35,887 bases of DNA from a bacterium (GTDB lineage: Bacteria; Patescibacteriota; Minisyncoccia; Phycocordibacterales; UBA12079). Positions 3-31,693 of this stretch are shown one piece after another; the first letter of the stretch is position 1, and each line of letters starts with the position of its first letter. Below the pieces are notes generated by a model, which had not been told where the DNA came from, made no database searches, and saw nothing but the letters and a program-made list of their open reading frames with translations. The position numbers and the translations under genes were made by a program. Location: positions 1-35,887 of the forward strand of contig DAOWHH010000007.1 in assembly GCA_030641525.1 (NCBI GenBank). Direction: 5' to 3'.

Positions 3-704
3 CAATTAAAAGAAAAATTTTTATCTATCCCTGAGGATGTACGGGCGGCTATTTCATCTACTGACATTGCTCAGAAATTACAAGAATTAGGAAATGAATA
101 TAGTTTACAGCTTGATGAAATAGATAAGTTATTTAATGAAATAGGTTTTGTAATGCTTGGATTAAAAAAATCAAGTGATTTTGTAAAAAATATACAAAAT
201 GTTAGTGGTTTAAGTTACGAGAAATCAAAACAATTAGCCGAAGATATAAATAATTCAATCTTTAAAGACATAAGAGAGTCTTTAAAAGAAATTCATCAAC
301 AATCTGATTTAGAAGAAGATGAAGACTTAGATGAGGATGCGGTAAGAAAAGAAATTATGTCAGAAATAGAAAAACCTACAATAAAAACAACAGATATTAT
401 CAATATTCCTCAAATGAATGAGAAGGAATCTACTTCTACTGAGGCTATTGTAGCTAAGAAAGACTTTAATGTGATAAAAACCTCCTCTACTGAAGACTCT
501 GGTGTGGTAAAGAAAGAAAATATTGTAGTAGATTTACCTACTGAACAAACAGATGAAATATCATTAACTAAACCATCCTTAGCTGAAGCTGTAATTGAAA
601 AAAGAGAACAATCTGCAAAGTCTTCCATCGCCAAAACTACAACAGACAAGCAAAAACAAGAAAAAAATACTATAATAGATCCATACAGAGAACCAATTGA
701 GTAG
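3..704 (+). CDS. Hypothetical protein of the secretion cluster, 5'-truncated
   Basis: The reading frame is open from the left edge, so the true start lies outside the window; the ATG at 153 is internal and not the real start. The part encoded before it (segment SIPEDVRAAIS, then a helix ending GFVMLGLKK) resembles a short helical domain I associate with conserved proteins of CPR secretion-like clusters. From about residue 100 onward the visible part becomes a low-complexity, Glu/Lys/Thr/Ser-rich tail that is probably disordered. No catalytic motif is visible. It lies 83 bases before the PrgI-family gene on the same strand and a palindromic repeat fills the gap. Function unknown; membership of the secretion cluster is inferred from position. 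Confidence 0.75.
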   Translation, partial: QLKEKFLSIPEDVRAAISSTDIAQKLQELGNEYSLQLDEIDKLFNEIGFVMLGLKKSSDFVKNIQNVSGLSYEKSKQLAEDINNSIFKDIRESLKEIHQQSDLEEDEDLDEDAVRKEIMSEIEKPTIKTTDIINIPQMNEKESTSTEAIVAKKDFNVIKTSSTEDSGVVKKENIVVDLPTEQTDEISLTKPSLAEAVIEKREQSAKSSIAKTTTDKQKQEKNTIIDPYREPIE

Positions 705-706
705 AA

Positions 707-786
707 AGTTCATAAAGTAAAAAAATCGCAAAGCAATTTTTCTGAAAGAACTTTCAACTTTACAAACTTTATAAACTTTACGAACT
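707..786. repeat. Composite intergenic palindrome, AAAGTTTATAAAGT family
   Basis: Outer arms 707-718 and 775-786 are reverse complements with one mismatch. An inner hairpin sits at about 722-743 (stems around a GC-AAA-GC triloop, one mismatch). The right half is a tandem of short ACTTTAYAA-like units. A closely related element lies at 9000-9082. Confidence 0.7.
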
Positions 787-787
787 A

Positions 788-1192
788 ATGTATATGCAAT
801 TTGAAGTACCACAATTTATAGAAGTTGAAGATAAAATTTTTGGACCTTTAACTTTTAAACAATTTATATATTTAGCAGGGGGTGCTGGTTTGAGTTTTAC
901 TCTATATTCCATTTTACCGAAATATATTGCTTTTTTACTTATTATTCCTATTATGATTTTTGTAAGTGCCTTAGCCTTTTATAAGATAAACGATAAACCA
1001 TTTATATTTATTCTGGAAGCTTTCTTTAAATTTTTAATGAAAAATAAATTATATATCTGGAAAAAAGAAACTAAAAAAATGGACATTAAAAAAGTAGAGG
1101 ATAAGGATATTATAGACCAATTAAATGTTCCTAGATTATCTAAAAATAGATTAAAAGAATTGAGTTGGGAATTAGACATACAAGATAAATAA
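788..1192 (+). CDS. PrgI-family membrane protein
   Basis: This 134-aa protein matches the PrgI family, small two-TM proteins found with VirB4-type ATPases in Gram-positive and CPR secretion systems. After the short leader QFEVPQFIEVEDKIFGPLTF come two adjacent hydrophobic segments at about residues 25-45 and 48-67. A basic amphipathic stretch (KFLMKNKLYIWKKE) and a charged C-terminal tail follow. The ATG at 794 (MQFEVPQF) is an equally possible start. It is followed 160 bases later by the TraC-like gene. The role is presumably membrane scaffold of the translocation channel; that is family knowledge, not visible in the sequence. Confidence 0.85.
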   Translation: MYMQFEVPQFIEVEDKIFGPLTFKQFIYLAGGAGLSFTLYSILPKYIAFLLIIPIMIFVSALAFYKINDKPFIFILEAFFKFLMKNKLYIWKKETKKMDIKKVEDKDIIDQLNVPRLSKNRLKELSWELDIQDK

Positions 1193-1199
1193 TAAATTA

Positions 1200-1350
1200 G
1201 GAGGTTAGCTTACTAGCTTTCTAGGAAAAAAATTTGCAGTTAAAACACTCTAAAAAATGTTCGCTCGACTAAAACATCTTTGATGTTCGTCCGATTAAAA
1301 CAGAGTTTTGATTTAGAGAGCAAATTTTATACTTAATACTTAATACTCAC
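1200..1350. repeat. Composite intergenic palindromic repeat containing a 44-bp unit
   Basis: The gap between the PrgI and TraC-like genes contains nested inverted repeats (AAAATTTGC near 1230 with GCAAATTTT near 1319-1328) and the 44-bp unit 1266-1309, which recurs in inverted orientation at 7751-7794 with one mismatch. The right end is a tandem of TACTTAA units ending just before the ATG at 1353. The unit itself contains the triloop hairpin AACATC-TTT-GATGTT. Confidence 0.75.
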
Positions 1351-1352
1351 TT

Positions 1353-1982
1353 ATGGTAAATAAATCAAAAAAAACACAAGATTTTGTATCTATAAAAGAA
1401 ATCCGAAATGGGGTAGCTCTTTTAACAAATAATTCTATGGTGGCTATATTAATGGTATCTTCTATAAACCTTGCTCTTAAATCATCAGATGAACAAAAAG
1501 CTATTATCTTACAATTTCAAAATTTTTTAAATTCACTTGAATTTTCTGTCCAACTCTTTATCCAGTCACAAAAATTAGATATTCGTCCATATATAACTAT
1601 GATGAATGACAGATTACAAGAACAAAAAAACGAATTAATTAAAATTCAAACAAAAGAATATATTAACTTTATTAAAGATTTTACAAATAAAACCAACATA
1701 ATGTCTAAATCATTTTTTGTTGTTGTTTCATACAATTCTCCAATCATTCAAACTAAAAAAGGAATAGGGGCTTTGTTTTCAGGTAAAAAAACTTTAAAGA
1801 AACAAGATTCTAGTATATTTGAAGAAAATCGTACACAATTAGAACAAAGAATTAATATAGTGGAACAAGGATTAACAAGGACAGGTGTCCGTTTAGTTAA
1901 ATTAGGAACAGAGGAGATTGTAGAATTACTTTATAAGTTATATAACCCAGGAGAATCAGAAAAACCAATCAAGCAAACTTGA
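1353..1982 (+). CDS. TraC-like / VirB4 N-terminal-domain-like protein
   Basis: The 209-aa protein resembles the stand-alone TraC/VirB4 N-terminal domain found just upstream of VirB4 in many CPR genomes. The visible order is a segment KTQDFVSIKEIRNGVALL, a predicted beta strand MVAILMVSSIN, a helical region FQNFLNSLEFSVQLFIQSQKLD, and a later strand KSFFVVVSYNSP. There is no P-loop, so it cannot be an ATPase by itself. It is cytosolic, with no TM segment. It ends in TGA 42 bases before the VirB4 ATPase and is probably co-transcribed with it. It likely partners with the ATPase; function inferred from family and context. Confidence 0.75.
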   Translation: MVNKSKKTQDFVSIKEIRNGVALLTNNSMVAILMVSSINLALKSSDEQKAIILQFQNFLNSLEFSVQLFIQSQKLDIRPYITMMNDRLQEQKNELIKIQTKEYINFIKDFTNKTNIMSKSFFVVVSYNSPIIQTKKGIGALFSGKKTLKKQDSSIFEENRTQLEQRINIVEQGLTRTGVRLVKLGTEEIVELLYKLYNPGESEKPIKQT

Positions 1983-2024
1983 CCAATTAAAAACTAATAA
2001 CTACAAACTAAAAACTTAATCATT

Positions 2025-3863
2025 ATGTCAATATTAGATAAAATAACAGGAAAAAAAGAAAAAAAAATAAAGATAGAACCTATTCTGCCTCAAGAAATTT
2101 ATGACGCAGGTGTTTTAGAGTTGAAAGATATTATTGCTCCTTCTGCCTTGAAAATAACTCCTAAAGAAACTCATTTGGGAGAAAAAATTATTAGAACCTT
2201 TTTTGTTATTTCATATCCAAAATTTTTAACAGATAATTGGTTTTCTCCGGTTATAAATCTGGATAAAGAATTTAATATATCAATTTTTATTCACCCAATC
2301 GAAACATCAACAATTCTTCGTAAATTTCAAAAAAAAGTTGCAGAAGTTCAAAGTCAAATAATAATGAGAGAAGAAAAAGGTATGGTTAGAGATCCATCAT
2401 TGGATGCCTCATATAGAAACCTAGAAAATCTAAGAGATAAATTACAACAATCCCAAGAAAAAATCTTTAATGTGAGTGTTTATTTATCAATTTATGGAGA
2501 TTCTGAAACAGAATTAGATAAAGCTGAGTCAGAAATCCGTTCTATTTTAGAATCTAAATTGATTTATATCCGACCATCTTTATTTCAACAAGAACAAGGA
2601 TTTAAAAGCACTCTTCCTCTTAATGAAGATAAGCTTGGTATTCATTCTAAATTAAATTCATCTCCGCTTTCTAGTATTTTTCCTTTCATATCTTCTGATC
2701 TTACATCCGATAAAGGAATTTTGTATGGTATTAATAGACATAATTCAAGTTTAGTTCTTTTTGATAGATTTTCATTACCAAGTTATAATTCTGTCACATT
2801 CGCTAAGTCAGGAGCAGGAAAATCCTATGCTGTAAAATTAGAAATCCTTAGATCTCTTATGTTTGATACAGATGTAATGGTTATTGACCCTGAAAAAGAA
2901 TATGAATATTTATCTGAGGCTATGGATGGAAGATATTTTAATATCTCATTAACATCTGAACACCATATCAATCCATTTGACCTTCCTAAAGCAAGAGAAG
3001 GGGAGTCTCAGTCCAATATTCTTCGTTCTAATATTATTAATTTAGTTGGTTTATTCAGAGTAATGTTTGGAGGTCTAACAGCAGAGGAAGACGCTATTAT
3101 AGATAAAGCTATAACCGAAACTTATGCTTTAAAAGATATTACTGCTGATTCTGATTTTTCTAATATTGAAGCACCTTTATTATCAGATTTTGAATTAGTC
3201 CTAGCAGGAATGGAAAATACTGAAAATCTTATACAAAAACTTTCAAAATTCACAAAAGGAACATGGTCAGGGTTTATAAATCAACCTACTAATATAGATA
3301 TTGATAGAAAATTTATAGTCTTTTCTTTGAGAGATATGGAGGATGAATTAAAAGCGGTAGCTATGTATATAATTACACATTATATTTGGAATGCTATTAG
3401 AAAAGAATTAAAAAAACGATTACTTGTAATTGAAGAGGCTTGGTGGATGATGAAAACAGAGGATACAGCATCATTTTTGTTCTCCTTAGCAAAGAGGGGG
3501 CGAAAATATTATTTAGGTATTTCTACTATAACTCAAGATGTAAATGATTTTTTACAATCTCCTTACGGTTTACCAATAATAACTAACTCATCAATGCAAT
3601 TATTATTAAAACAATCACCTACCAGTATAGATCAAATACAAAAAACTTTTAATTTAACTGATGAAGAAAAATTTCTATTATTAGAATCAAGAGTAGGGGA
3701 AGGAATATTCTTTGCAGGAACAAAACACATAGCCATACAAATATTTGCATCATATACAGAAGATCAAATCATCACATCAGACCCATCTCAAATACTAAAA
3801 ATCAAAAAAGCTAAAGAAGAGTTAGAAACAACCGAGTCTAAACCGAAACTTAACCAGCTTTAA
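2025..3863 (+). CDS. VirB4-family secretion ATPase
   Basis: This 612-aa protein is the motor ATPase of the secretion-like cluster. Residues about 20-230 form a VirB4/TraC-type N-terminal domain, including a long helical hairpin at 95-150. The ATPase domain has a Walker A at 263-267 (GAGKS within FAKSGAGKSYAVK), an Asp-containing strand MVIDPEKEYEYL at about 285-296, and a Walker B at about 466-474 (LLVIEEAWW). A conserved RGRKYYLGISTITQDVNDF stretch follows. The length is shorter than Gram-negative VirB4 (about 800 aa) but normal for CPR. It is followed 15 bases later by a small membrane protein. ATP hydrolysis powering substrate or pilin movement is family knowledge; the substrate is unknown. 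Confidence 0.92.
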   Translation: MSILDKITGKKEKKIKIEPILPQEIYDAGVLELKDIIAPSALKITPKETHLGEKIIRTFFVISYPKFLTDNWFSPVINLDKEFNISIFIHPIETSTILRKFQKKVAEVQSQIIMREEKGMVRDPSLDASYRNLENLRDKLQQSQEKIFNVSVYLSIYGDSETELDKAESEIRSILESKLIYIRPSLFQQEQGFKSTLPLNEDKLGIHSKLNSSPLSSIFPFISSDLTSDKGILYGINRHNSSLVLFDRFSLPSYNSVTFAKSGAGKSYAVKLEILRSLMFDTDVMVIDPEKEYEYLSEAMDGRYFNISLTSEHHINPFDLPKAREGESQSNILRSNIINLVGLFRVMFGGLTAEEDAIIDKAITETYALKDITADSDFSNIEAPLLSDFELVLAGMENTENLIQKLSKFTKGTWSGFINQPTNIDIDRKFIVFSLRDMEDELKAVAMYIITHYIWNAIRKELKKRLLVIEEAWWMMKTEDTASFLFSLAKRGRKYYLGISTITQDVNDFLQSPYGLPIITNSSMQLLLKQSPTSIDQIQKTFNLTDEEKFLLLESRVGEGIFFAGTKHIAIQIFASYTEDQIITSDPSQILKIKKAKEELETTESKPKLNQL

Positions 3864-3878
3864 ATATAGAATTAATAT

Positions 3879-4190
3879 ATGAATAAAGACGGAAAGATAG
3901 ACAAAACTACTGCAACTTTTATGGTAATAATTGCCTTTTTAATTGATGGAATTCAAGGTTTTTTAACTCTTATATTAATAGGACCTTTTGTAAATTGGCT
4001 TATTAGTATTTTCGCTTGGCTTACATTTTTTCTATGGTTTGCAATTAAAGGTGTTAGATTTTCTAAAGACACTAAGAGTTTATTAATGTTTACAGGAGGA
4101 GGTTTAATGGAAGTTATACCTCTTATAGCATCATTACCCGGATGGACAATTACAATAATATCATTGGTTACAAGAAATAAGAATTTTTAA
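3879..4190 (+). CDS. Small membrane protein of the secretion cluster
   Basis: A 103-aa protein beginning MNKDGKIDKTTATFMV. It has hydrophobic segments at about residues 13-35 and 40-57 and a weaker one at about 65-95 containing GGGLMEVIPLIASLPGW. No enzyme motif is visible. It starts 15 bases after the VirB4 gene and is followed by a secreted protein gene, so it is probably an inner-membrane accessory of the same system. I do not recognise a named family with certainty. Confidence 0.75.
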   Translation: MNKDGKIDKTTATFMVIIAFLIDGIQGFLTLILIGPFVNWLISIFAWLTFFLWFAIKGVRFSKDTKSLLMFTGGGLMEVIPLIASLPGWTITIISLVTRNKNF

Positions 4191-4224
4191 TATATATAGA
4201 GTATAATACTTATATAATATATTT

Positions 4225-5217
4225 ATGATATATAATCTTCATAAAAAAATATATATAGGAATTACAGCATTTCTATTGTTGAGCATATTTAATATTTCAC
4301 ATAGTCAAGATTTTGCCCTTCGCGGAACTGATATGCAAATAACATTAAGTCCTGAATTTCCTTCAGCTAATGAGACTATTACAGCTAAAATAGAATTTTA
4401 TTCCATTGATTTGCAAAGAACTAATATTATTTGGTCTATAAATGGAGAAATAAAAAAAGAAACTATTGGAGGAAGAGATTTTTCATTCAGAACTAAAGAT
4501 TTGGGAGAAATAATAGTTTTAAAAGTTGATGTCTATACTCCTAATTCAGAATTATTTACAAGACAAATTAATATAAATCCTACCGATATAGACCTAATTT
4601 GGGAAGCAGAAACATACACACCAACTTTTTATAAAGGTAAGGCCTTAAATACCCACGAATCTGTCATTAAAATAGTAGCTCTACCTAATTTCATTGATGC
4701 TTCTAAAAATAAGATTGATCCAAAAAATCTAATTTATAAATGGAAGAAAGATTTAAGTGTACAGGGTGAAAAATCAGGATATGCTAAAAATACACTCTCT
4801 TTTATTGGGCCATCTTTATTAAGAGAAAATATTATTACAGTTGAAATAGAGAGTATGGACGGAAAAATTAAAGGAAGAAAATTAATTATAATAGAGGCTC
4901 AGGAGCCAGAAATTATTTTTTATGAAAACGACCCTTTATTAGGAATAAAAAATAATTTAAGTATTGAAAATAATTTCAATTTAAAATCAGGAGAATTAAA
5001 ATTAATAGCTCAACCCTTTTTCTTTTCATTAACAAGTGGAAATAATATTCAATATGAATGGATTATGAATGGAAATATTATAAATAATAATACTAACAAA
5101 ATTATTTTAAAAAAACCTGAAGAGATTAAAGGTTTATCTACTTTATCATTACGCATTCAAGATATAACAAAAATCTTTCAATTTGCTGAAAATGATTTAA
5201 ATATTAATTTTAATTAA
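4225..5217 (+). CDS. Secreted Ig/PKD-like protein of the secretion cluster
   Basis: 330 aa with an N-terminal signal peptide: basic start MIYNLHKK, hydrophobic core IYIGITAFLLLSIF, likely cleavage near HSQ-DF. The rest is beta-rich with repeated patterns such as PSANETITAKIEFYSID...IIWSINGE, typical of Ig/PKD-like folds, at roughly 35-110, 130-225 and 230-325. No catalytic residues were identified. Its stop (TAA, 5215-5217) directly abuts the ATG of the pilin-like gene at 5218, indicating translational coupling. It is likely a surface or periplasm-equivalent component of the apparatus. Function unknown. Confidence 0.8.
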   Translation: MIYNLHKKIYIGITAFLLLSIFNISHSQDFALRGTDMQITLSPEFPSANETITAKIEFYSIDLQRTNIIWSINGEIKKETIGGRDFSFRTKDLGEIIVLKVDVYTPNSELFTRQININPTDIDLIWEAETYTPTFYKGKALNTHESVIKIVALPNFIDASKNKIDPKNLIYKWKKDLSVQGEKSGYAKNTLSFIGPSLLRENIITVEIESMDGKIKGRKLIIIEAQEPEIIFYENDPLLGIKNNLSIENNFNLKSGELKLIAQPFFFSLTSGNNIQYEWIMNGNIINNNTNKIILKKPEEIKGLSTLSLRIQDITKIFQFAENDLNINFN

Positions 5218-5787
5218 ATGAAAAAAAATATATTAAAAATAGTTTTTATATTTGTATTGTTTGCAAAATATACTGTTACTAACGCTACAACTAAAACTGT
5301 GGAATATACACTTTTAGAATCTTCATTACCTAATATCCCAGACAAAACAAGTAATATAGGAGAGTACTTACAAGGAATATTTATATTAGGGGTTGGTTTG
5401 GCATCTGTGTTGGCTGTTTTAATGATCGTAATTGGAGGTTTTAAGTATATGACAGCAGAGGCTTCTCCTTTTTCAATAGAAGAAGCTAAAAAAAATATCA
5501 CAAATGCTATATTAGGTTTAATTCTTATACTAGCATCTTGGTTATTACTTAATACCATTAGCCCTGATTTAATAAACTTTAATCTTAATTTAAAAGGAGT
5601 GACTCTACCTGAACCTAAAGAACCTGAACATGTTGTCCCTTTCTGTGAAATAGAAGAAAATTGGTGTGATAATATTTGTCGTGATTGTAAAATAAAAGAA
5701 CATAGAGATAAATGTATAGAATGTCAAGATATTGGATTCTTACCCATAAATAATAAAAAAATAACAAATCTAAAAACCCTAACATAG
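5218..5787 (+). CDS. VirB2/TrbC-like pilin-type membrane protein with a Cys-rich tail
   Basis: 189 aa. The N-terminus looks like a signal peptide (MKKNILKIVFIFVLFAKY..TNA). Two TM helices follow at about residues 53-74 (GIFILGVGLASVLAVLMIVIGG) and 93-115 (ITNAILGLILILASWLLLN), separated by FKYMTAEASPFSIEEAKKN. This arrangement is typical of the TrbC/VirB2-like pilin proteins of Patescibacteria. The C-terminal about 45 residues carry seven cysteines, including two CxxC pairs, and could bind zinc or form disulfides. It overlaps nothing but abuts the upstream gene exactly. It may be the pilus or channel subunit of the cluster. Confidence 0.82.
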   Translation: MKKNILKIVFIFVLFAKYTVTNATTKTVEYTLLESSLPNIPDKTSNIGEYLQGIFILGVGLASVLAVLMIVIGGFKYMTAEASPFSIEEAKKNITNAILGLILILASWLLLNTISPDLINFNLNLKGVTLPEPKEPEHVVPFCEIEENWCDNICRDCKIKEHRDKCIECQDIGFLPINNKKITNLKTLT

Positions 5788-5800
5788 AAGATATAAAAAT

Positions 5801-7045
5801 ATGAACATAAAAAAAATAATATTTATTACAATACCAATTTTCCTAATAATTATTTTATTTTATTGGTTTTTTTTAAGAGAAACTGATAGAGGTATTAGTT
5901 TTGATGATTTTACAGTTCTCTTTCCTAGTGGAGAAGTAGATGATATTGATTTAGGGAGAGAATTTAGAGAAAGACAGGAACAGGATCAAATAGATGGTAT
6001 CCCTATAACATCACAAGATATTTATACTGAGGATCTTATTTTAAGAAAAATATCATCAAACCCTGTCGTTAATGCAATTATTTTTGAAGATATATCTTCA
6101 AAAACAACAATTAATGAAGATAAAAACTACATAATAAGATATATAGAAAAAATCACAGGACATATTTATGAAACTACAACAAAATCATTAATTCAAAACA
6201 GAATATCAAATACAACCATCCCTAAAATAAATAAAGTTCTTTGGATTGATAAAGATAATTTAATTATTAGGTATATAGAAGAAGATATTATTAAAACATT
6301 TTCAGCTAATTTAGTTGAAGATTCAAATAACGAATTAAGTTTAGAGGGTGTTTATCTACAAGATAATATAAGAGAAATTATAAAATTTAACGATGGAATA
6401 TTCTATTTATTAGAAATAGGAACTAATTCAATAGGCTTAACCTCTGACTTAAAATCTGAAAAAAGGAAACAAGTGTTAAATTCTGACCTAAGAGAATGGT
6501 TAATTTATAATATTGATGACGAAAAAATAAACTTCACAACAAAAACAGCTGAAAATATATTAGGATATTCATTTATTTTTAACCCTATTACTGAAAATTT
6601 TGATAAAGTTTTAGCAAATAAATTAAATTTATCTACATTAATAAATAAAAATTTTGATATTCTATACACTGAAAACTTACAATTAATACCTAAGTTATTT
6701 GTCTATAATTTTGAAAATAAAGTAAGTATTGATATACCTATCAATACATTTCCAGAAAAATGTGTTTGGGGGAAAGATAATATAAAAGTATATTGTGGAG
6801 TTCCTAATAATTCTTTATCTAGAAGTTCTTTAGATAATTGGTATAAAGGAAAAATATCTTTTTCGGATGATATTTGGGAAATCAATACAAATACAGGAAA
6901 GACAAAAAAATTAATCTCACCTCTTGATGAAGTAGGAGAGAATATTGATGTTATTAATATAAAAATAAACAATGATGACAATTACCTAACATTCATCAAT
7001 AAAAAAGACTTTAATCTCTGGGGATTGAAACTTATCTCTAATTAG
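5801..7045 (+). CDS. Membrane-anchored extracytoplasmic beta-rich protein
   Basis: 414 aa with one N-terminal TM segment (IIFITIPIFLIIILFYWFF, about residues 6-24). A long extracytoplasmic region of repeated beta patterns follows (for example KINKVLWIDKDNLIIRYIE, NDNYLTFINKKDFNLWGLKL), suggestive of a beta-propeller-like fold of the kind common in CPR secretion clusters. No catalytic motif was found. It starts 13 bases after the pilin-like gene and is last in the plus-strand cluster; its stop codon lies inside the 7028-7055 terminator hairpin. The propeller assignment is tentative. Confidence 0.75.
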   Translation: MNIKKIIFITIPIFLIIILFYWFFLRETDRGISFDDFTVLFPSGEVDDIDLGREFRERQEQDQIDGIPITSQDIYTEDLILRKISSNPVVNAIIFEDISSKTTINEDKNYIIRYIEKITGHIYETTTKSLIQNRISNTTIPKINKVLWIDKDNLIIRYIEEDIIKTFSANLVEDSNNELSLEGVYLQDNIREIIKFNDGIFYLLEIGTNSIGLTSDLKSEKRKQVLNSDLREWLIYNIDDEKINFTTKTAENILGYSFIFNPITENFDKVLANKLNLSTLINKNFDILYTENLQLIPKLFVYNFENKVSIDIPINTFPEKCVWGKDNIKVYCGVPNNSLSRSSLDNWYKGKISFSDDIWEINTNTGKTKKLISPLDEVGENIDVINIKINNDDNYLTFINKKDFNLWGLKLISN

Positions 7046-15796: not shown

Positions 15797-15825
15797 ATAT
15801 TACCCCAGTTTAGACCAAATGTCTA
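15797..15825 (-). promoter_or_regulatory. Promoter of yebC
   Basis: Minus strand: -35 TAGACA (15825-15820), 17-base spacer, -10 TAATAT (15802-15797), then 6 bases to the ATG at 15790. Confidence 0.7.
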
Positions 15826-15831
15826 TATTTT

Positions 15832-15870
15832 AAAAACATCTCTAGAAGTCGCACCTCTGGAAATGTCTTT
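15832..15870 (-). terminator. Terminator of the terpene-cyclase-like operon
   Basis: A 17-position stem (15854-15870 with 15832-15848, loop of 5). It contains three G·U pairs when read on the minus strand and one mismatch, and is followed by TTTTT. It lies just downstream of the 15888 stop and before yebC. Confidence 0.65.
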
Positions 15871-15887
15871 AGGTATATAAATAAATG

Positions 15888-17804
15888 TTATTTAAAAGTT
15901 TTTAAGAATTGCAGGGTCTTTTTTTGTTCATCTAGGGCTTTTTGGGCTGATTTTTCTTGTCTCTCTAATATTTTCTCAAAAATTTTAAAATTATTTATTA
16001 TTTTAAGTTTTTTAATACTCATTCTGGCTTTTTGGCTATGTTTAAGAACATCATTACATAATTTAATAATAGTTTTATTCCAAAAAATACTTTGTAATTG
16101 TTCCAAATCTCTTTCAATATCTAATTCTTTATTTTTAGTCCATTTTTTCAAAACCAAAGCACAAGCTGGGCTAATATGTTGATTTTTCAAATCAATTTCC
16201 CAATCATGAGCATCATCATTTAGTTGTTTGGTTATAATATAATTTTCAAAAAATTTAATAGTGTTTTTTATTTCTAACGATGATTCTTTGTATCCAAGAG
16301 AAAATAGGATTGCAGTTGGACCTAAAGCATGACCCATTGATCTATCAGCTAATCTTTTATAATTAGAATAATCAGGAATATTTTTTAAATCAATTCCTCT
16401 ACAATTAGTAGTTTCCCAAGTATTAGCAGAATCAATTTCATTCATAGTCTTTTTGAAAAAATCAAAAAAACCTGTTTCATAAGGGAGAATTTTTTCAAAT
16501 ATTAAAGTTAATTCTCTTAAACATACATTAGCAATAGAAAGTTTTTTGGGATTACCCTCTTCATCCAGAAAATCATCATAAATAGTGTAAGCGATCCAAC
16601 CTAATAAATTAGCTAAACCAAGATTTATTATCATTTCGTCAGATAGTTTTTTAGCAAACTCTTTTTTAAGAGATGATTTAAAAAAATAAGGAAGAAGTAT
16701 TATTTCAAAACGACTTTTATGTTTATTTATTTTTTCTAAAGATTTCAAAGTTTGATTTTTTAAATCATCATCTAATTTTGAAAAAATATTTTTAGTTTTC
16801 TTTATTATTTTATTATAAATTTGTTTTTGATCGTTAGTTTTTTTGTTTTCTATCTTTGTCTTTTTGATTTCTAGTACTTTTTTATATTTATTCATAGCTT
16901 CCAAACAAAATGCTGTTGTTAGGGTGGGGGAACCAGCATAATATGTTTTTTTATTTATAACAGGATCAATACAAAAAGCATAAGCTTTCCATTTTCCATT
17001 TTCATTATTTTTATTTAAATAATTAATTGCTTTATCAACCTTCTTAGGTGATTCTCCTAAATTAAGTAGAGCTGAGACAGCTAAAGCTGTATTTAATGGA
17101 TTATTCCAAGAGCCATTTTTATTTTGTTTTTTAAAAAGATATTTTTTTATTTTTTCTACTTTTTTACCCTTATAATATCGAGATATAAAATAGATAGCAG
17201 TATAAGGGGTTGGATAATAAGGAGTTATGTATTCTTCTTTATCTATTTTTGATTCAATAAATTTATTGAGTTTTGGTAAAGAAATTTCTTGAAGTAATAA
17301 AAAATAGGCAATATTACTATTTACAACCAAATCTACATCTTTCCAAATTTCCTCAGTATCGGATGGAACAATCCAAGTTTTATAAGGACCCCCTTCTTGT
17401 TTTTCTGTAAAGGTTAGGATATTTATAATATTAGCTAATACCTCTCCGTCAAATATTTCTGGTTTATTTAAAAATAATGTAGAAATTGCACAAAAAGTAT
17501 CATCTAAATCGTCGGGATATGGAAGTTTTTTTGATTCTTCTGAATTACGAACCCAATAATTAAAAGACCACACATCACTTTTTTGTGTTAATAAAAATTT
17601 TATTCCTTTAGATATAATCTTTTTACTTTTTAAGTCATCTAATTCACTCAAAGACGAAAGGATAAGAGAGGTAGGAAATACCGAATGATATTTTCTAGTA
17701 TTTTTAAAATTATTAATAGATGGTGAAGATAAACTTAAAAAACTACCGTTTTTTTCTTGGTTTTTTAATAGAAAATCTATACTTTGTTCTTTATTAAATT
17801 TCAT
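15888..17804 (-). CDS. Putative bifunctional class II/class I terpene synthase-like protein
   Basis: 638 aa, two parts. Residues 1-310 look like an alpha/alpha-barrel of the squalene-hopene cyclase/prenyltransferase fold. QW-like repeats are FLLKNQEKNGSF (11-22), YLFKKQNKNGSW (222-233) and YLNKNNENGKW (262-272), and DLDDT at 99-103 matches the DxDD(T) proton-donor motif of class II cyclases. Residues about 330-638 are all-helical with IYDDFLDEEG (Asp410, Asp411, Asp414), a DDxxD motif of class I isoprenoid synthases, and a second acidic cluster QLNDDAHDWEID (527-538). Together they suggest protonation-initiated cyclisation plus diphosphate-dependent chemistry on a prenyl diphosphate. No signal peptide or TM. 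It starts 22 bases after the histidine kinase stop, so it is probably in one operon with it. The fold is well supported by motifs; substrate and activity are unknown. Confidence 0.75.
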   Translation of the reverse strand: MKFNKEQSIDFLLKNQEKNGSFLSLSSPSINNFKNTRKYHSVFPTSLILSSLSELDDLKSKKIISKGIKFLLTQKSDVWSFNYWVRNSEESKKLPYPDDLDDTFCAISTLFLNKPEIFDGEVLANIINILTFTEKQEGGPYKTWIVPSDTEEIWKDVDLVVNSNIAYFLLLQEISLPKLNKFIESKIDKEEYITPYYPTPYTAIYFISRYYKGKKVEKIKKYLFKKQNKNGSWNNPLNTALAVSALLNLGESPKKVDKAINYLNKNNENGKWKAYAFCIDPVINKKTYYAGSPTLTTAFCLEAMNKYKKVLEIKKTKIENKKTNDQKQIYNKIIKKTKNIFSKLDDDLKNQTLKSLEKINKHKSRFEIILLPYFFKSSLKKEFAKKLSDEMIINLGLANLLGWIAYTIYDDFLDEEGNPKKLSIANVCLRELTLIFEKILPYETGFFDFFKKTMNEIDSANTWETTNCRGIDLKNIPDYSNYKRLADRSMGHALGPTAILFSLGYKESSLEIKNTIKFFENYIITKQLNDDAHDWEIDLKNQHISPACALVLKKWTKNKELDIERDLEQLQSIFWNKTIIKLCNDVLKHSQKARMSIKKLKIINNFKIFEKILERQEKSAQKALDEQKKTLQFLKTFK

Positions 17805-17826
17805 AATGATTTTTTCCTACCTTTAA

Positions 17827-19290
17827 TTAACTTCTTACCGGTATTTCAATCATAAATATTGTCCCTTTTCCCTCTTTCGTTCTTAATTTAATTTTTCCAT
17901 TAAAATCTTTTTCAACCACATCTTTACAAATAGATAACCCAAGTCCAGTTCCATCTATACCTTTTGTTGTGAATAAAGGTTCAAAGATTTTATTAATATA
18001 TTTCTTTTTGATCCCACAACCCCAATCTTTAATTGTAATTGTGATAATATTTCTTTTTTGTGAAAGAGAAACTTCCACTTGTTTTTTATTTTTTTTGGTC
18101 TCTTTCTTTATTGCTTTACAAGCATCTATAGAATTAGCAACTAAATCACTTATTATTCTATAAAATTTGATAGGATTTCCTTTTGTTCTAATTAAAATAT
18201 TAGGAGGATTAAAAATAAGTCTAATATTATCTTTTCTAGTTTTATACGAAAGGGTCTCTAATGCTAATGTAATTTCATCAGCTAAAGAAAAAGTAATTTT
18301 AATTTTCTGATTTTGTATTTGTTTTCTGGCAACGTCAGTAAATCTTTTCATCTCCTCAATATTATTTGCTACTTTTTCTATAGCCTTGTAATCTTCTCCA
18401 ATTTTCTCATACTTTTTTTGAAGTTTTTCTATATTAAGAGTCATTGCTGTTAAAGGGTTGACTAAATCATGAAAAATTCCAGATGCCATTCTTCCAAATT
18501 CTGCGAATCTATAAAGTTGTATAGCTTTTTCAGTCTGTGTTTCTTTAAGCCTATTAGTTCTTTCAGTAATTTTTATTTCTAAAGAATCTTTTTCAGCTCT
18601 TAAATTAACTTCTGATTTTCTAGCTCTATTTAAAGATTTTCTAATTTCTCTATTAGATAACCAAGAGACAATAAATATAATAATAAGTATTATTGAAAAG
18701 ATAATCGGATCTTCTTTTTTAATTACTAATTCATTTTTCCAATATGTATGGGCTGTATAAATACCTTTTGTTTGTAAGTACCCAAAAAATATTAATATAA
18801 AACTAATTAATAATGTCATTAAAAAAGAAAACCGATAATTTATTAATATTCCAGTAATAATTATAACCAAGACAAATGACAATAATATTTGGGGTTGTCC
18901 TACTCCAAAATAATACACACCGTGAGATATAGCTAAAAAATATATAATAACTAAATTATATGATGCTAGATTAATATGACTTTTATAAGAAAATATAAAG
19001 AGTGAAATGAATATGGACAATATTATTAATATATAATATGGTGAAATACCATTATATAGATTACCTAATCTAACATAATTGTAAGCTGTTGTAATAAATA
19101 CTACAAAAATTAAAATAATTGAAGTAAAAAGAAGAATATTAAGAATAAATTCTTGACGTTGAATATCCTCTTTTTTAGACTTAGGTTTAATTAATTTTTC
19201 AAATAAAAAATAGGCATATCTTTTTAAAGAAAAACCTTTTTCTGTAATTTTTGAAATGCCCATTTTCATTTTTATTCTAACTCCATACAA
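17827..19290 (-). CDS. Sensor histidine kinase with six-TM N-terminal domain
   Basis: 487 aa. Six hydrophobic segments at about 48-69, 83-101, 108-126, 133-150, 155-171 and 195-211 form a membrane sensor with little extracytoplasmic sequence. A coiled coil follows (about 215-258). The HisKA H-box is GIFHDLVNPL with phospho-acceptor His274. The HATPase domain has the N-box SDLVANSIDACKA (Asn386), DWGCGI (422-427), an F-box-like IFEPLFTTK and GTGLGL (447-452). The start at 19290 has no Shine-Dalgarno; Met8 (19269) has GGAG 11 bases upstream and may be the real start. It pairs with the response regulator upstream. The signal is unknown; the membrane-embedded sensor suits a lipid or membrane-state cue, which is inference. 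Confidence 0.9.
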   Translation of the reverse strand: MYGVRIKMKMGISKITEKGFSLKRYAYFLFEKLIKPKSKKEDIQRQEFILNILLFTSIILIFVVFITTAYNYVRLGNLYNGISPYYILIILSIFISLFIFSYKSHINLASYNLVIIYFLAISHGVYYFGVGQPQILLSFVLVIIITGILINYRFSFLMTLLISFILIFFGYLQTKGIYTAHTYWKNELVIKKEDPIIFSIILIIIFIVSWLSNREIRKSLNRARKSEVNLRAEKDSLEIKITERTNRLKETQTEKAIQLYRFAEFGRMASGIFHDLVNPLTAMTLNIEKLQKKYEKIGEDYKAIEKVANNIEEMKRFTDVARKQIQNQKIKITFSLADEITLALETLSYKTRKDNIRLIFNPPNILIRTKGNPIKFYRIISDLVANSIDACKAIKKETKKNKKQVEVSLSQKRNIITITIKDWGCGIKKKYINKIFEPLFTTKGIDGTGLGLSICKDVVEKDFNGKIKLRTKEGKGTIFMIEIPVRS

Positions 19291-19548
19291 GGGTTGTTTC
19301 CATAATGATCACAACAAAAGCTGAAATAGCCATTGTATCTCTTATTACTTTATTAATAAAAACCTTTTTCAGTAGTTTCTTTGTATTTTTATATCAAATT
19401 AGTCTCTTTCTAAGAGACAATATAAGAAGCAGTTTTTCTTTTTATCATATCAAAATAATCTTTTTCATTTACTGTAATTTTATTATCTCATATCCATTTC
19501 ATTTCTAGATATTAACCCTTAGTGATAATTAAAAACATCTCGTTTATT

Positions 19549-20220
19549 TTAAAATTCATCAATTTTGTAACCCCTTCCTGAAACAGTCTTAATTAATTTT
19601 CTTTTTGATGTATTATATATTTTTTTTCTCAAATTCATTATATGAGCTTCAATAGTATTTGAGAAAGGATCAATACTCAAATCCCAAACATGTTCCATAA
19701 TCATTCCTCTAGATAAAACCTTCCCTTTATTTCTTGCCAAATATTCTAATAACATAAATTCTTTTTTTGTAAGATCTATTTTTTTATTTCGATATACAAC
19801 CAAATACTTATCCATATCTATAACAAAATCATTTAATAATATTATATTATTTTCTATATTTTTAGGACGACGTAATAAAGCTTTTATTCTAGCTAATAAT
19901 TCAATCAATAAAAACGGTTTGGTTAAATAATCATCAGCACCTAAATTAAGTAAATTAACTTTATCTTCAATCTCAGGCTTAATTGATAAAATTAATATAG
20001 GTGTATCTTTACCCGCTTCTCTTATTTCTTTACATACTATATCACCAGTTTTATTAGGTAACATAATATCTAATAATATTAAATCGTAATCATTAGTTCT
20101 AGCTAAATACGAACCTTTTTCTCCGTCATTAGCTATATCCACAGCGAAGCATTCTTCTTCTAGACTTGTTTTAAGAGAATCAATAATTTCTAAATTATCT
20201 TCTATAATTAATATACGCAT
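19549..20220 (-). CDS. OmpR/PhoB-family response regulator
   Basis: 223 aa. Receiver domain 1-115 with acidic pocket EDN (7-9), phospho-acceptor Asp51 in LILLDIMLP, Ser79 at the switch position and Lys101 in LTKPF. The winged-helix DNA-binding domain (about 125-223) has LTKKEFMLLEYLARNKGKVLSR and VSGRGYKI. It is a transcription factor activated by phosphorylation, presumably by the kinase 258 bases downstream. An extended -10 (TGCTACAAT) ends 7 bases before the ATG, suggesting a leaderless mRNA. It is the first gene of the RR-HK-cyclase set. Confidence 0.94.
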   Translation of the reverse strand: MRILIIEDNLEIIDSLKTSLEEECFAVDIANDGEKGSYLARTNDYDLILLDIMLPNKTGDIVCKEIREAGKDTPILILSIKPEIEDKVNLLNLGADDYLTKPFLLIELLARIKALLRRPKNIENNIILLNDFVIDMDKYLVVYRNKKIDLTKKEFMLLEYLARNKGKVLSRGMIMEHVWDLSIDPFSNTIEAHIMNLRKKIYNTSKRKLIKTVSGRGYKIDEF

Positions 20221-20236: not shown

Positions 20237-20428
20237 TCTTTAGTATTAGAAGAGGAAATTTATTTTTTAATAACACAATAAAATTAAAAAAGATTTAATT
20301 TATCTCCAAGATAATTATAAAATAATTCGGAAAAAGTAGATATTTCTATTAAATAGACAGATTAGTGTTATCCACTGATTTTATTTTTTCTTTATCTATT
20401 CTTTATAAGAAATTTATAGTAATTATTC

Positions 20429-26825: not shown

Positions 26826-27341
26826 ATGAAAAAATTAATTTTTATAACAGGTGGTGCAATTTCTGGAAAAAGTACTTTCGCTTTACAGATTTTAGAGAAT
26901 GAAGATGATGTTAGTTTCATTGCAACAGGACAAGTATGTGATAAAGAAATGAAAGAAAAGATTAAAAACCACAAAAAAGAGCGTTCAAAAACTTGGGAAA
27001 CAATTGAGGTGAATAATCAAAACATAGAAGATATCATTAAAAATATCAATAAAAAGTTTGTTATTATAGATTGTTTAACTTTTTATGTTTCTACACAATT
27101 GATAAAAAATAAAAATGATAGAATTCTAGATTCTGCTAAAAATATAGTGGAAGAAATTAATAAAAACAAGAACATTAAAAAATGTATTATTGTATCAAAT
27201 GAGGTTGGGATGGGAATTGTACCAAATAATGAACTTTCAAGAAATTTCAGAGAGATATTAGGTAATGTTAATAAAATTTTTATGAAAAATACGAATAAAG
27301 CTTATTTTATGGTTTCTGGGTATCCTTTAAAATTAAAATAA
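26826..27341 (+). CDS. cobU: CobU-like adenosylcobinamide kinase/guanylyltransferase
   Basis: 171 aa, normal length. P-loop GGAISGKST (9-17; consensus GGARSGKS), a His49 region HKKERSKTWETIE corresponding to the GMP-accepting histidine, and the diagnostic SNEVGMGIVPNNELSRNFREILGNVN stretch near 130-155. The reaction phosphorylates adenosylcobinamide and then transfers GMP to give AdoCbi-GDP. It is 10 bases downstream of polA and 42 bases upstream of cobS, so cobU-cobS-cobC form a run. The P-loop Arg is replaced by Ile; otherwise intact. Confidence 0.9.
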   Translation: MKKLIFITGGAISGKSTFALQILENEDDVSFIATGQVCDKEMKEKIKNHKKERSKTWETIEVNNQNIEDIIKNINKKFVIIDCLTFYVSTQLIKNKNDRILDSAKNIVEEINKNKNIKKCIIVSNEVGMGIVPNNELSRNFREILGNVNKIFMKNTNKAYFMVSGYPLKLK

Positions 27342-27383
27342 CTTTGTAGTTTTGTTTTTAAGGTAGAATGTAAATAATAAAAA

Positions 27384-28148
27384 ATGAAAAATCTTCTATT
27401 AGCGATAATAACTTTCACAAGAATACCATTTCCTCAAAAAGATTTAAACTTGGATATGGACGAATTATATAAATCAATGGCATTTTTCCCATTCTGTGGT
27501 TTTATTATTGGTTTGTTTTGCTCCGCTATTTTATATTCTTTACAAAATATACTTCCTGTGAATATCTTAATACTTACTGTTATTTTTATTATGACAATAA
27601 TTACTGGAGCATTTCACGAAGATGGTTTAGCAGATGTTTGTGATAGTTATGGTGGTTATACAAAAGAAAAAAAGCTTGAAATTATGAGGGATAGTAGAAT
27701 TGGGACTTTCGGGGTTTTGGGTTTAATAATGCTTATATTTTTTAAATTTTTCTTATTAAAAGAAATTTCCTTAGAAATATTACCTATAGCAATTATAACA
27801 TCTCTTACTATAGGAAGGTTTTGTGTAATACCTATCATAAAACTATATTCATGCTTAGAAAGAGATGAAGGGGAACAAAATTATGTATCCCATATATTAA
27901 ATTTTAACTACAGAACATTATTTATTGCTTTTCTATTTACAATCATAATCACTGGTTTAGTTTTAGGTTTTATAAAAGCTTTGTTAATCTTATTTATAGT
28001 TCAGATTATTATTCTTTTAATAGGTATATATTTTAAACATAGTTTAGGAGGAATTAGTGGAGATGTATGTGGAACGTTAGAACAAATCGGAGAATTAATT
28101 GTTTATTTATTATTTATATTTTTTCAAAATGGAATTATATTTATTTAG
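27384..28148 (+). CDS. cobS: CobS, adenosylcobinamide-GDP ribazoletransferase
   Basis: 254 aa polytopic membrane protein with about six TM segments. Diagnostic motifs are FTRIPFP at the N-terminus, HEDGLADVCDSYGGY (the acidic Mg-binding motif, about 72-86) and KLEIMRDSRIGTFGVLGL (about 91-110), then GGISGDVCGTLEQIGE near the end. It joins AdoCbi-GDP to alpha-ribazole (phosphate) at the membrane to complete cobalamin. The 3' end overlaps the cobC start by 20 bases, indicating translational coupling. Confidence 0.93.
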   Translation: MKNLLLAIITFTRIPFPQKDLNLDMDELYKSMAFFPFCGFIIGLFCSAILYSLQNILPVNILILTVIFIMTIITGAFHEDGLADVCDSYGGYTKEKKLEIMRDSRIGTFGVLGLIMLIFFKFFLLKEISLEILPIAIITSLTIGRFCVIPIIKLYSCLERDEGEQNYVSHILNFNYRTLFIAFLFTIIITGLVLGFIKALLILFIVQIIILLIGIYFKHSLGGISGDVCGTLEQIGELIVYLLFIFFQNGIIFI

Positions 28149-28638
28149 ACATGGAGAAATAGAAGATAAAAATAAATTTATTGGTCATACCGATAGTGAA
28201 TTAACTATAAAAGGAAAAAAACAAAATCTTTTTACAAAAATAAAAATACAAAAAATAAAAGTTGATGCGGTTTTTTCGAGTAATTTAAAAAGAACATTTA
28301 TTGATAATGCTGTTAATGTTAAAAACATTAATGAAATCAATTTTGGTTTATGGGAAGGTTTAAGTTGGTATGAAATAGAAGAACAATTTCCTAAATTAGT
28401 AAAAAATTATTTAAACAACCCTCTATCATTTCATTTTCCTAATGGTGAAAATTTCGATGATTTCAAAATAAGAGTGTTATATTTTATTAATAATCTAAAA
28501 GAAAATAATTATAAAAAAGTTGCCCTAATTACCCATAAAGGAGTTATCCAGTTATTGTTAAACCATTTCCAAAATAAAGATTTTTGGGATATAAAAATAT
28601 CTTACGGTGAAATGATTAAGTTAAACTTACACTTCTAA
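28129..28638 (+). CDS. cobC: CobC-like histidine phosphatase (alpha-ribazole phosphatase)
   Basis: About 169 aa from the ATG at 28129 (MELYLFRHGEIED); an upstream in-frame ATG at 28099 would add ten hydrophobic residues encoded within cobS and is unlikely. Histidine phosphatase motifs are LFRHGE (catalytic His), SSNLKRTF, FGLWEGLSWYEIEEQFP and ALITHKGVIQ (second His). It removes phosphate from alpha-ribazole 5'-phosphate or adenosylcobalamin 5'-phosphate. Overlap with cobS and position after cobU-cobS support the cob assignment over a generic phosphoglycerate mutase. The family alone would be ambiguous. Confidence 0.85.
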   Translation: MELYLFRHGEIEDKNKFIGHTDSELTIKGKKQNLFTKIKIQKIKVDAVFSSNLKRTFIDNAVNVKNINEINFGLWEGLSWYEIEEQFPKLVKNYLNNPLSFHFPNGENFDDFKIRVLYFINNLKENNYKKVALITHKGVIQLLLNHFQNKDFWDIKISYGEMIKLNLHF

Positions 28639-30931: not shown

Positions 30932-31693
30932 ATGCAAGAATTTAAAAGCGAATTTGTTCATTCTTATCATACCTATTCTTTTGGGTATTGTAATTATGCA
31001 ATAAAGGAAAAAAAAGATATTTTGTCAGATATTTATAATAAGGGTTATCTTCCTTATTCAGGTGAAGAGGGTATAAAAAATATCTTATATATGGCAAGAA
31101 GTGCAAGGGTGAATTTAAAAGATTTTGTTTTAAATAGTGAGAACAGAAGAGTGTTGAGAAAATTTGATGATAAATTTGAGTTTGAAAAAATTCCTCTAAA
31201 TAAATTTAATTTTAAAGATAAAAAATTTATTAAATTTTGTTTAAATTATTTCGAAAAAAAACATGGTGATAAAATTATGCCCAAAAAAAGATTAGAGACT
31301 GTACTTAAGGCAAATTTTATAACAAATATTTTAGTTTATAAGGATATGGATGGGGATATTATTGCTTATGTTTATGAAGTGGATGATAAAAAAATATCTC
31401 ATGTTTGGCTTTATTTTTATGATTTAGATTATTCTGATCAATCTTTAGGGATGTGGCTTATGATAGATATGGCAAGAAGGTCAAAACTAGAAGGTAAAAA
31501 ATATTTTTATGTAGGTACTATTTATGGGGAAAAAGCTTTATACAAAACAAATTTTGATTTTTTAGAATATTGGAATGGGAATGAATGGATAAAAAATAAA
31601 AAGAAATTAAAACAAAGGAGTCGGAGTGATTATCAAAGAGAATTCAATAATATAGATGAATTTAAGGAAGGGAAAAATATAGATTTTAAATAA
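30932..31693 (+). CDS. Aminoacyl-tRNA-protein transferase (ATE/Bpt)-like GNAT protein
   Basis: 253 aa. The N-terminal half has ARSARVNLKDFVLNSENRRVLRKF (55-78), which parallels the ATE/Bpt stretch ending in SRSQRRVxRR, but the cysteines that precede it in classical ATE are missing. The C-terminal half fits the GNAT-like ATE_C domain: WLYFYDLDYSDQSLGMWLM (159-177), then KKYFYVGTIYGEKALYKTNFDFLEYWNGNEW (189-219; family pattern YLGYWI...MxYKxxFxPxE...GxW). Relatives move an amino acid from aminoacyl-tRNA to a protein N-terminus. It is 4 bases after the Mpl-like ligase, suggesting a joint pathway and perhaps a non-protein acceptor. Acceptor and donor are unknown. Confidence 0.68.
   Translation: MQEFKSEFVHSYHTYSFGYCNYAIKEKKDILSDIYNKGYLPYSGEEGIKNILYMARSARVNLKDFVLNSENRRVLRKFDDKFEFEKIPLNKFNFKDKKFIKFCLNYFEKKHGDKIMPKKRLETVLKANFITNILVYKDMDGDIIAYVYEVDDKKISHVWLYFYDLDYSDQSLGMWLMIDMARRSKLEGKKYFYVGTIYGEKALYKTNFDFLEYWNGNEWIKNKKKLKQRSRSDYQREFNNIDEFKEGKNIDFK

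Follow-up and report, generated by a model that had tools for sequence, protein, structure and literature searches.

A conserved kinase, response regulator and two-domain terpenoid-type enzyme in CPR bacteria: a probable circuit for signalling with terpene-tagged peptides

Few CPR bacteria have been cultured; their genomes are tiny, and they are thought to depend on other cells. What is a dedicated sensor kinase and response regulator pair doing in one of them, directly beside a terpenoid-type enzyme? The window that raises this question, the whole stretch of 35,887 nucleotides analysed here, belongs to an assembly of 0.58 Mb in 18 contigs, with 87% completeness. A sequence-only reading of it had proposed a membrane-lipid sensing circuit, in which a scavenged prenyl diphosphate is cyclised to alter the membrane. 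We arrive at a different answer, to which we give a probability of roughly 0.7: the window carries one copy of a CPR-wide cluster that is a prenyl-peptide pheromone circuit working in the manner of ComQXPA.

The three genes lie on the minus strand in the order regulator, kinase, cyclase-like enzyme, at the coordinates given by the sequence-only reading; all three are intact, and the order is conserved in relatives. The regulator (19549..20220, 223 aa) is of the OmpR/PhoB type, with Pfam Response_reg and Trans_reg_C domains. The sensor histidine kinase (17827..19290), recognised in Pfam by its HATPase_c domain, has 487 aa when read from the TTG at 19290, the likely start being either this codon or the ATG at 19269. 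Its DHp motif, FHDLVNP, includes a histidine, His274, that is invariant in the kinase alignment (A2), and the AF2 model shows the six TM helices that had been predicted. The two-domain enzyme (15888..17804, 638 aa), identified by fold, profile and motif evidence, begins 22 bases after the kinase stop, the same distance as first reported. Regulator and kinase are separated by 258 bp, a spacing that does not by itself imply co-transcription of the regulator. The terminator that had been placed 3' of the enzyme gene is less secure: a hairpin is present on the minus strand (15824..15876; MFE -17.5 kcal/mol, z -5.6), but its T-run is short and it was absent from the output of the terminator scan.

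Elsewhere in the window, on the plus strand, genes for CobU, CobS and a CobC-like phosphatase stand in a row (26826-28638); such cobalamin nucleotide-loop assembly genes are unexpected in a 0.58-Mb CPR genome. Close to the dnaA region (153-7045, also on the plus strand), a TraG/VirB4-like ATPase is encoded together with small membrane and pilin-like proteins, a set that resembles a type IV secretion or conjugation apparatus. A protein encoded at 30932-31693 on the same strand matches arginyl-tRNA-protein transferase (ATE_C) and GNAT only weakly.

The character of the enzyme is best seen in its AF2 model (mean pLDDT 90.6). Foldseek and structural alignment matched residues 1-311 to drimenol synthase (9mhs; Z 32.0, rmsd 2.4, 284 aligned) and to the monodomain class II cyclase MstE (6sbd; Z 27.6, rmsd 3.1, 286 aligned), an enzyme that cyclises prenylated aromatics. 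A phmmer search of the PDB with the enzyme returned no match, whereas a profile of the N-domain did find drimenol synthase there (E 7e-12). The domain combines an alpha/alpha-barrel fold with a DxDD-type acid motif, DLDDT, found by motif search at residues 99-103 (17496..17510, minus strand), and is thus a class II terpene cyclase (beta domain) by fold and motif; the sequence-only reading had called the protein terpene-cyclase-like. Pfam matches to TED_complement and RGS were taken as chance or fold-level resemblance. A DxD[DTS] motif is present in 54 of the 64 family members that exceed 580 aa; the shorter relatives mostly lack the acid motif, so the cyclase part appears to be optional, and in some relatives the cyclase domain is shortened or has no acid motif. 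Two outlying sequences that resemble the domain were also seen. One (L038:8154-9176, minus strand) is a stand-alone homologue that has no C-domain and begins with a segment for membrane insertion or secretion; the other is a segment of a TPR protein encoded on a plasmid of Nostoc sp. C052 (L149:1778-5434), which at 30% identity to the N-domain is possibly a cyanobacterial relative of the cyclase.

Residues 323-621 match a trans-polyprenyl synthase (4jyx; Z 24.7, rmsd 2.8, 280 aligned). The C-domain thus unites the trans-IDS fold with a first, FARM-like Asp-rich motif, DDFLDEE (residues 410-416; 16557..16577, minus strand), in which D414 is invariant and D410 is conserved in at least 90% of sequences in alignment A1. 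The second Asp-rich motif (SARM) and the Gln preceding it are contained in QLNDDAHDW (residues 527-535; 16200..16226, minus strand), where Q527, D530, D531 and D534 are all invariant in the same alignment. The domain therefore has both a FARM (D410/D414) and a conserved Gln immediately upstream of its SARM (Q527/D530/D531/D534), although a Gln in this position also occurs in ordinary IDS and is not decisive for a Trp prenyltransferase. A pattern search for the IPP-site signatures GGK..R and DDxxDxxxxRR found them in 0 and 2 of 85 family members, respectively. Nearly the whole family consequently lacks the IPP-binding signatures of a chain-elongating trans-polyprenyl diphosphate synthase, whereas 13 IDS-like ORFs within the clusters do carry both.

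The arrangement recurs well beyond the window. A gene for a six-TM histidine kinase stands immediately 5' of the enzyme gene in 71 of the 73 CPR loci with upstream room, and 69 of the pairs overlap or are no more than 60 bp apart; in the same set, an OmpR-type regulator gene lies upstream in the same orientation in 55 loci and elsewhere in the locus in 4. This adjacency of kinase and enzyme is far beyond chance and identifies a real conserved system. The earlier suggestion of a dedicated two-component pair tied to a terpenoid-type enzyme thereby holds, and holds across the CPR. Two findings named beforehand as fatal to it, genes that lie apart in relatives and a predicted structure without a cyclase fold, did not turn up. 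Of 380 genomes sampled from the phylum to which the window belongs, 20 gave an enzyme match, dispersed over many families; two of these (G161, a weak match, and G349, with the N-domain only) were judged not to be true full relatives, leaving 18. An alignment-based scan of 84,980 species yielded 84 relatives, and among the matches listed (80 of the 84) all are CPR/Patescibacteria by title or plain 'bacterium' MAGs, in a scan that required the motif [RK]Q[LIM]xDDx[HK]DW and that distant relatives outside the CPR could escape. When genome contigs were scanned with a single enzyme protein as the query there was no match; the alignment query succeeded.

What the sequence-only reading overlooked is a tiny peptide gene ahead of the kinase. 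In relatives, the gap between regulator and kinase contains, directly before the kinase, a reading frame of 34-40 aa, such as MNKLIKKILTDRRMRNIATLNAFLVTTLSVGGPWQD, with a conserved leader and a Trp near the C-terminus. A leave-one-out profile, searched in six frames through the locus withheld from it, ranked this peptide first in 68 of 68 loci, and the model also detected L088 and L113, both outside the training set and both ending in PW plus a few residues. A leader-only model, restricted to the first 18 residues and blind to the Trp, found 64 loci; in all 64 matches there is a Trp among the last nine residues, 2-8 from the end. Positions M1, L9, R15 and W34 are invariant in an alignment of 34 members. 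Relatives therefore encode, next to the kinase gene, a peptide with a Trp no more than about 10 residues from its C-terminus.

The peptide gene is also tied to the enzyme gene, which it directly precedes even where a kinase was not detected (L113, L120). All 13 confident matches in the 380-genome sample (E <= 1e-3, in 13 genomes) fall in enzyme-positive genomes, a co-occurrence that is partly by construction, as the model was trained on several of these loci. More telling is what the other genomes lack: enzyme-negative genomes of the sample gave no confident match at this threshold and a single marginal one (E 0.009, in G174). The Pfam model for ComX (PF05952) matched none of ten peptides and nothing in the genome, but this model passed its own cut-off in no control genome, B. 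subtilis included. ComX itself is very variable.

Additionally, a polyprenyl diphosphate synthase gene is found inside the cluster in 13 loci. It lies directly 3' of the enzyme gene in L043, L050, L063, L065, L080, L088, L097 and L099, and on the other strand in L060; between regulator and kinase in L041 and L091; before the kinase, at a contig end, in L069; and just upstream of the regulator in L071. Two of these in-cluster synthases match PF00348 with E-values of 8e-55 (L041) and 4e-57. Counted over whole genomes, the association with a synthase is only mild: one is present in 9 of the 18 genomes that have a real enzyme match, against 95 of 362 others. From the neighbourhood, the peptide and the enzyme we conclude that the probable role of the cluster is to produce a terpene-tagged peptide signal and to detect it.

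The window copy is a special case. In its nearest relative, L041 (enzyme 69% and kinase 61% identical), synthase and peptide genes are both intact and lie between regulator and kinase, and the 258-bp gap of the window contains remnants of both genes. The synthase gene is mostly deleted, and the fragment left of it (19416..19547, minus strand; PF00348, E 3e-4) is interrupted by an internal TGA and TAA. The remnant of the Trp-peptide gene, the pheromone precursor (19277..19393, minus strand), is a frame that reads YKNTKKLLKKVFINKVIRDTMAISAFVVIIMETTLVWS up to a stop codon, with no ATG, GTG or TTG upstream. This frame occupies the conserved position, retains the ...LVWS ending and is the best match to the leave-one-out model in the window, although a weak one (E 0.03, with a runner-up at E 0.066). 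The 87%-complete assembly contains no second copy of the peptide and no intact polyprenyl diphosphate synthase; this bacterium may therefore use a scavenged prenyl donor, as the sequence-only reading had suggested, but the proposed cyclisation of that donor to alter the membrane is not supported.

The simplest account of these remnants is a recent loss of signal production, with receiver and enzyme retained. Probably this bacterium no longer makes a signal of its own; it may now only be listening, or the locus may be in early decay. That the window peptide is not intact does weigh against the pheromone circuit, in that the system may not function here. A tentative alternative, which we consider improbable, is that the peptide is still translated from a non-standard start and that the local system is active, its prenyl donor being scavenged or otherwise made. 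Such activity would agree with a frame that is open to its stop and keeps the Trp and leader pattern, with the intact state of the other three genes, and with purifying selection on the open frame of the enzyme (dN 0.20, dS 1.3 and dN/dS about 0.15 versus L041); yet the frame has no ATG, GTG or TTG where its start would be expected, it scores only marginally with the peptide model, and the adjoining synthase gene is clearly broken. Since this alternative concerns the window copy only, it is compatible with a pheromone circuit in the family at large. In a Colwellbacteria locus (L070:6965-8832) it is the enzyme gene that is broken, into two frames, and this is another possible decaying copy.

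Upstream of the regulator in the window there is a direct repeat, TTCTTTA-N4-TTCTTTA (20388..20405, plus strand), a candidate regulator-binding box with a layout typical of OmpR-type sites. It is the sole perfect match genome-wide; one-mismatch matches are at control level (17 versus 19 for the reversed pattern), and information can thus be drawn from the perfect site ahead of the regulator alone. In the loci compared, the repeat with up to two mismatches occurs upstream of the peptide in 12 of 67 (0.85 expected) and upstream of the regulator in 12 of 55 (0.95 expected). Because the motif was derived from the same sequences, this enrichment is only suggestive of autoregulation.

Which known systems does the cluster resemble? 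ComQXPA of Bacillus likewise brings together a small precursor peptide with a Trp near its C-terminus, a trans-IDS-fold enzyme with an Asp-rich motif and, in adjacent genes, a multi-TM kinase and response regulator. Its regulator ComA, however, is of the LuxR/GerE type, whereas that of the CPR cluster is OmpR-type (Trans_reg_C), and the CPR gene order of regulator, peptide, kinase and enzyme is unlike that of ComQXPA. The CPR enzyme differs from ComQ in its extra class II cyclase domain and in its SARM, a full DDxxD (DDAHD) in place of the pseudo-SARM NDxxx. No sequence relation between the enzyme and ComQ was detected, at an hhalign probability of 1.8% with a profile of only two ComQ sequences. 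By regulator type, ComQ homology, pseudo-SARM and ComX Pfam match the CPR cluster is thus not ComQXPA proper, but it appears to work like it. The hosts also differ, being CPR here and Firmicutes for ComQXPA, of which a census in 2014 found none outside Firmicutes (PMC4008528).

In the PalP-PalX-PalQ system of Paenibacillus alvei, the gene for a proven Trp prenyltransferase lies next to those for its peptide and a kinase (PMC10853753). The PalQ residues Q197/D200/D204 have the same Q-xx-D-xxx-D spacing as Q527/D530/D534 here, whereas PalX, with its NHLP leader and C-terminal Trp, is unlike the CPR peptide (PMC10853753); PalQ, compared by description, also differs from the CPR enzyme in having no cyclase domain. 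The characterised trans-IDS-like peptide prenyltransferases (ComQ, PalQ and the P domain of ChrPC) all act on Trp, and they have in common a Gln just upstream of the SARM that helps to hold the indole (PMC13290415). According to the same review, the cyclase domain of ChrPC cyclises the prenyl group on the peptide in the course of RiPP biosynthesis (PMC13290415). Likened to it by description only, the CPR enzyme resembles ChrPC in joining a trans-IDS-like domain, in ChrPC a Trp prenyltransferase, to a cyclase domain. Drimenol synthases (HAD-TCbeta) and MstE share the fold and acid motif of the N-domain, but the drimenol synthase cyclase is fused to a HAD domain and the CPR cyclase to a trans-IDS-like domain. 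We know of no sensor circuit linked to ChrPC. Enzyme type and circuit logic are each known separately, and their combination across the CPR would be new; the literature searched, mostly without subscription papers, contained no report of it and nothing relevant on quorum sensing in Patescibacteria or Saccharibacteria.

We propose that the circuit would operate as follows. A prenyl diphosphate would be supplied by the in-cluster synthase, by another synthase or by scavenging, and the C-domain of the enzyme would bind it and move the prenyl group onto the Trp in the C-terminal region of the peptide. Where present, the class II cyclase domain would cyclise the chain, either before transfer or on the peptide, the latter modelled on MstE (prenylated aromatics) and ChrPC (prenylated Trp). 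The product would then be cut and exported. Outside the cell, the processed peptide would be sensed by the membrane domain of the six-TM kinase, and the OmpR-type regulator would switch target genes, probably including this cluster. Among the CPR loci compared, the cluster has no conserved exporter or protease. Paired ABC exporter genes lie on the opposite strand, about 1-3 kb downstream of the enzyme, in L075, L077, L084, L087 and L090; they might serve in peptide export, but their linkage to the cluster is loose.

The same modified peptide might instead be a secreted antimicrobial (RiPP), its production autoregulated by the kinase-regulator pair, and not a pure cell-cell signal. Trp-prenylated and terpenoid RiPPs do exist (PMC13290415), and the exporter pairs downstream of the enzyme would suit such a role, but they are few, on the opposite strand and grouped with other genes. 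No conserved immunity or protease gene is present, and the compact set of one kinase, one regulator and one peptide is the layout of a pheromone circuit; we therefore regard an antimicrobial as unlikely. A shade less likely still is a bifunctional terpene synthase whose product is a small unattached terpenoid (a pigment, a membrane lipid or a signal), with the peptide as something else, such as a leader or small regulator. Both enzyme domains resemble terpenoid enzymes and polyprenyl diphosphate synthase genes join the cluster, but almost all intact loci have the peptide alongside the enzyme, it was not found in enzyme-less CPR genomes, and the invariant Trp at its C-terminal end is left with no role; conservation at the protein level, with a Trp 2-8 residues before the end, is also more than a leader peptide would require. 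The sequence-only reading came close to this idea, and its membrane-lipid sensing via a free terpenoid was dropped because of the conserved Trp-peptide. Together with a second domain that has the fold and motifs of a prenyl-transferring enzyme, that small Trp-containing precursor points to a modified peptide signal and away from a change of the membrane.

For the pheromone circuit we would go one step further, with confidence only a little better than even: scattered CPR lineages communicate through a cyclised-prenyl-Trp pheromone, with a fused cyclase-prenyltransferase to produce it and a dedicated kinase and regulator to detect it, and the lineage of the window has lost the signal and kept the receiver. 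The literature searched describes no dedicated system of cell-cell signalling in the CPR. If true, a circuit that extends across Saccharibacteria, Microgenomates, Parcubacteria, Berkelbacteria and others would offer a testable handle on how these bacteria sense each other or their hosts, and it would also provide some 70 predicted peptides and a new enzyme for terpenoid-tryptophan peptides.
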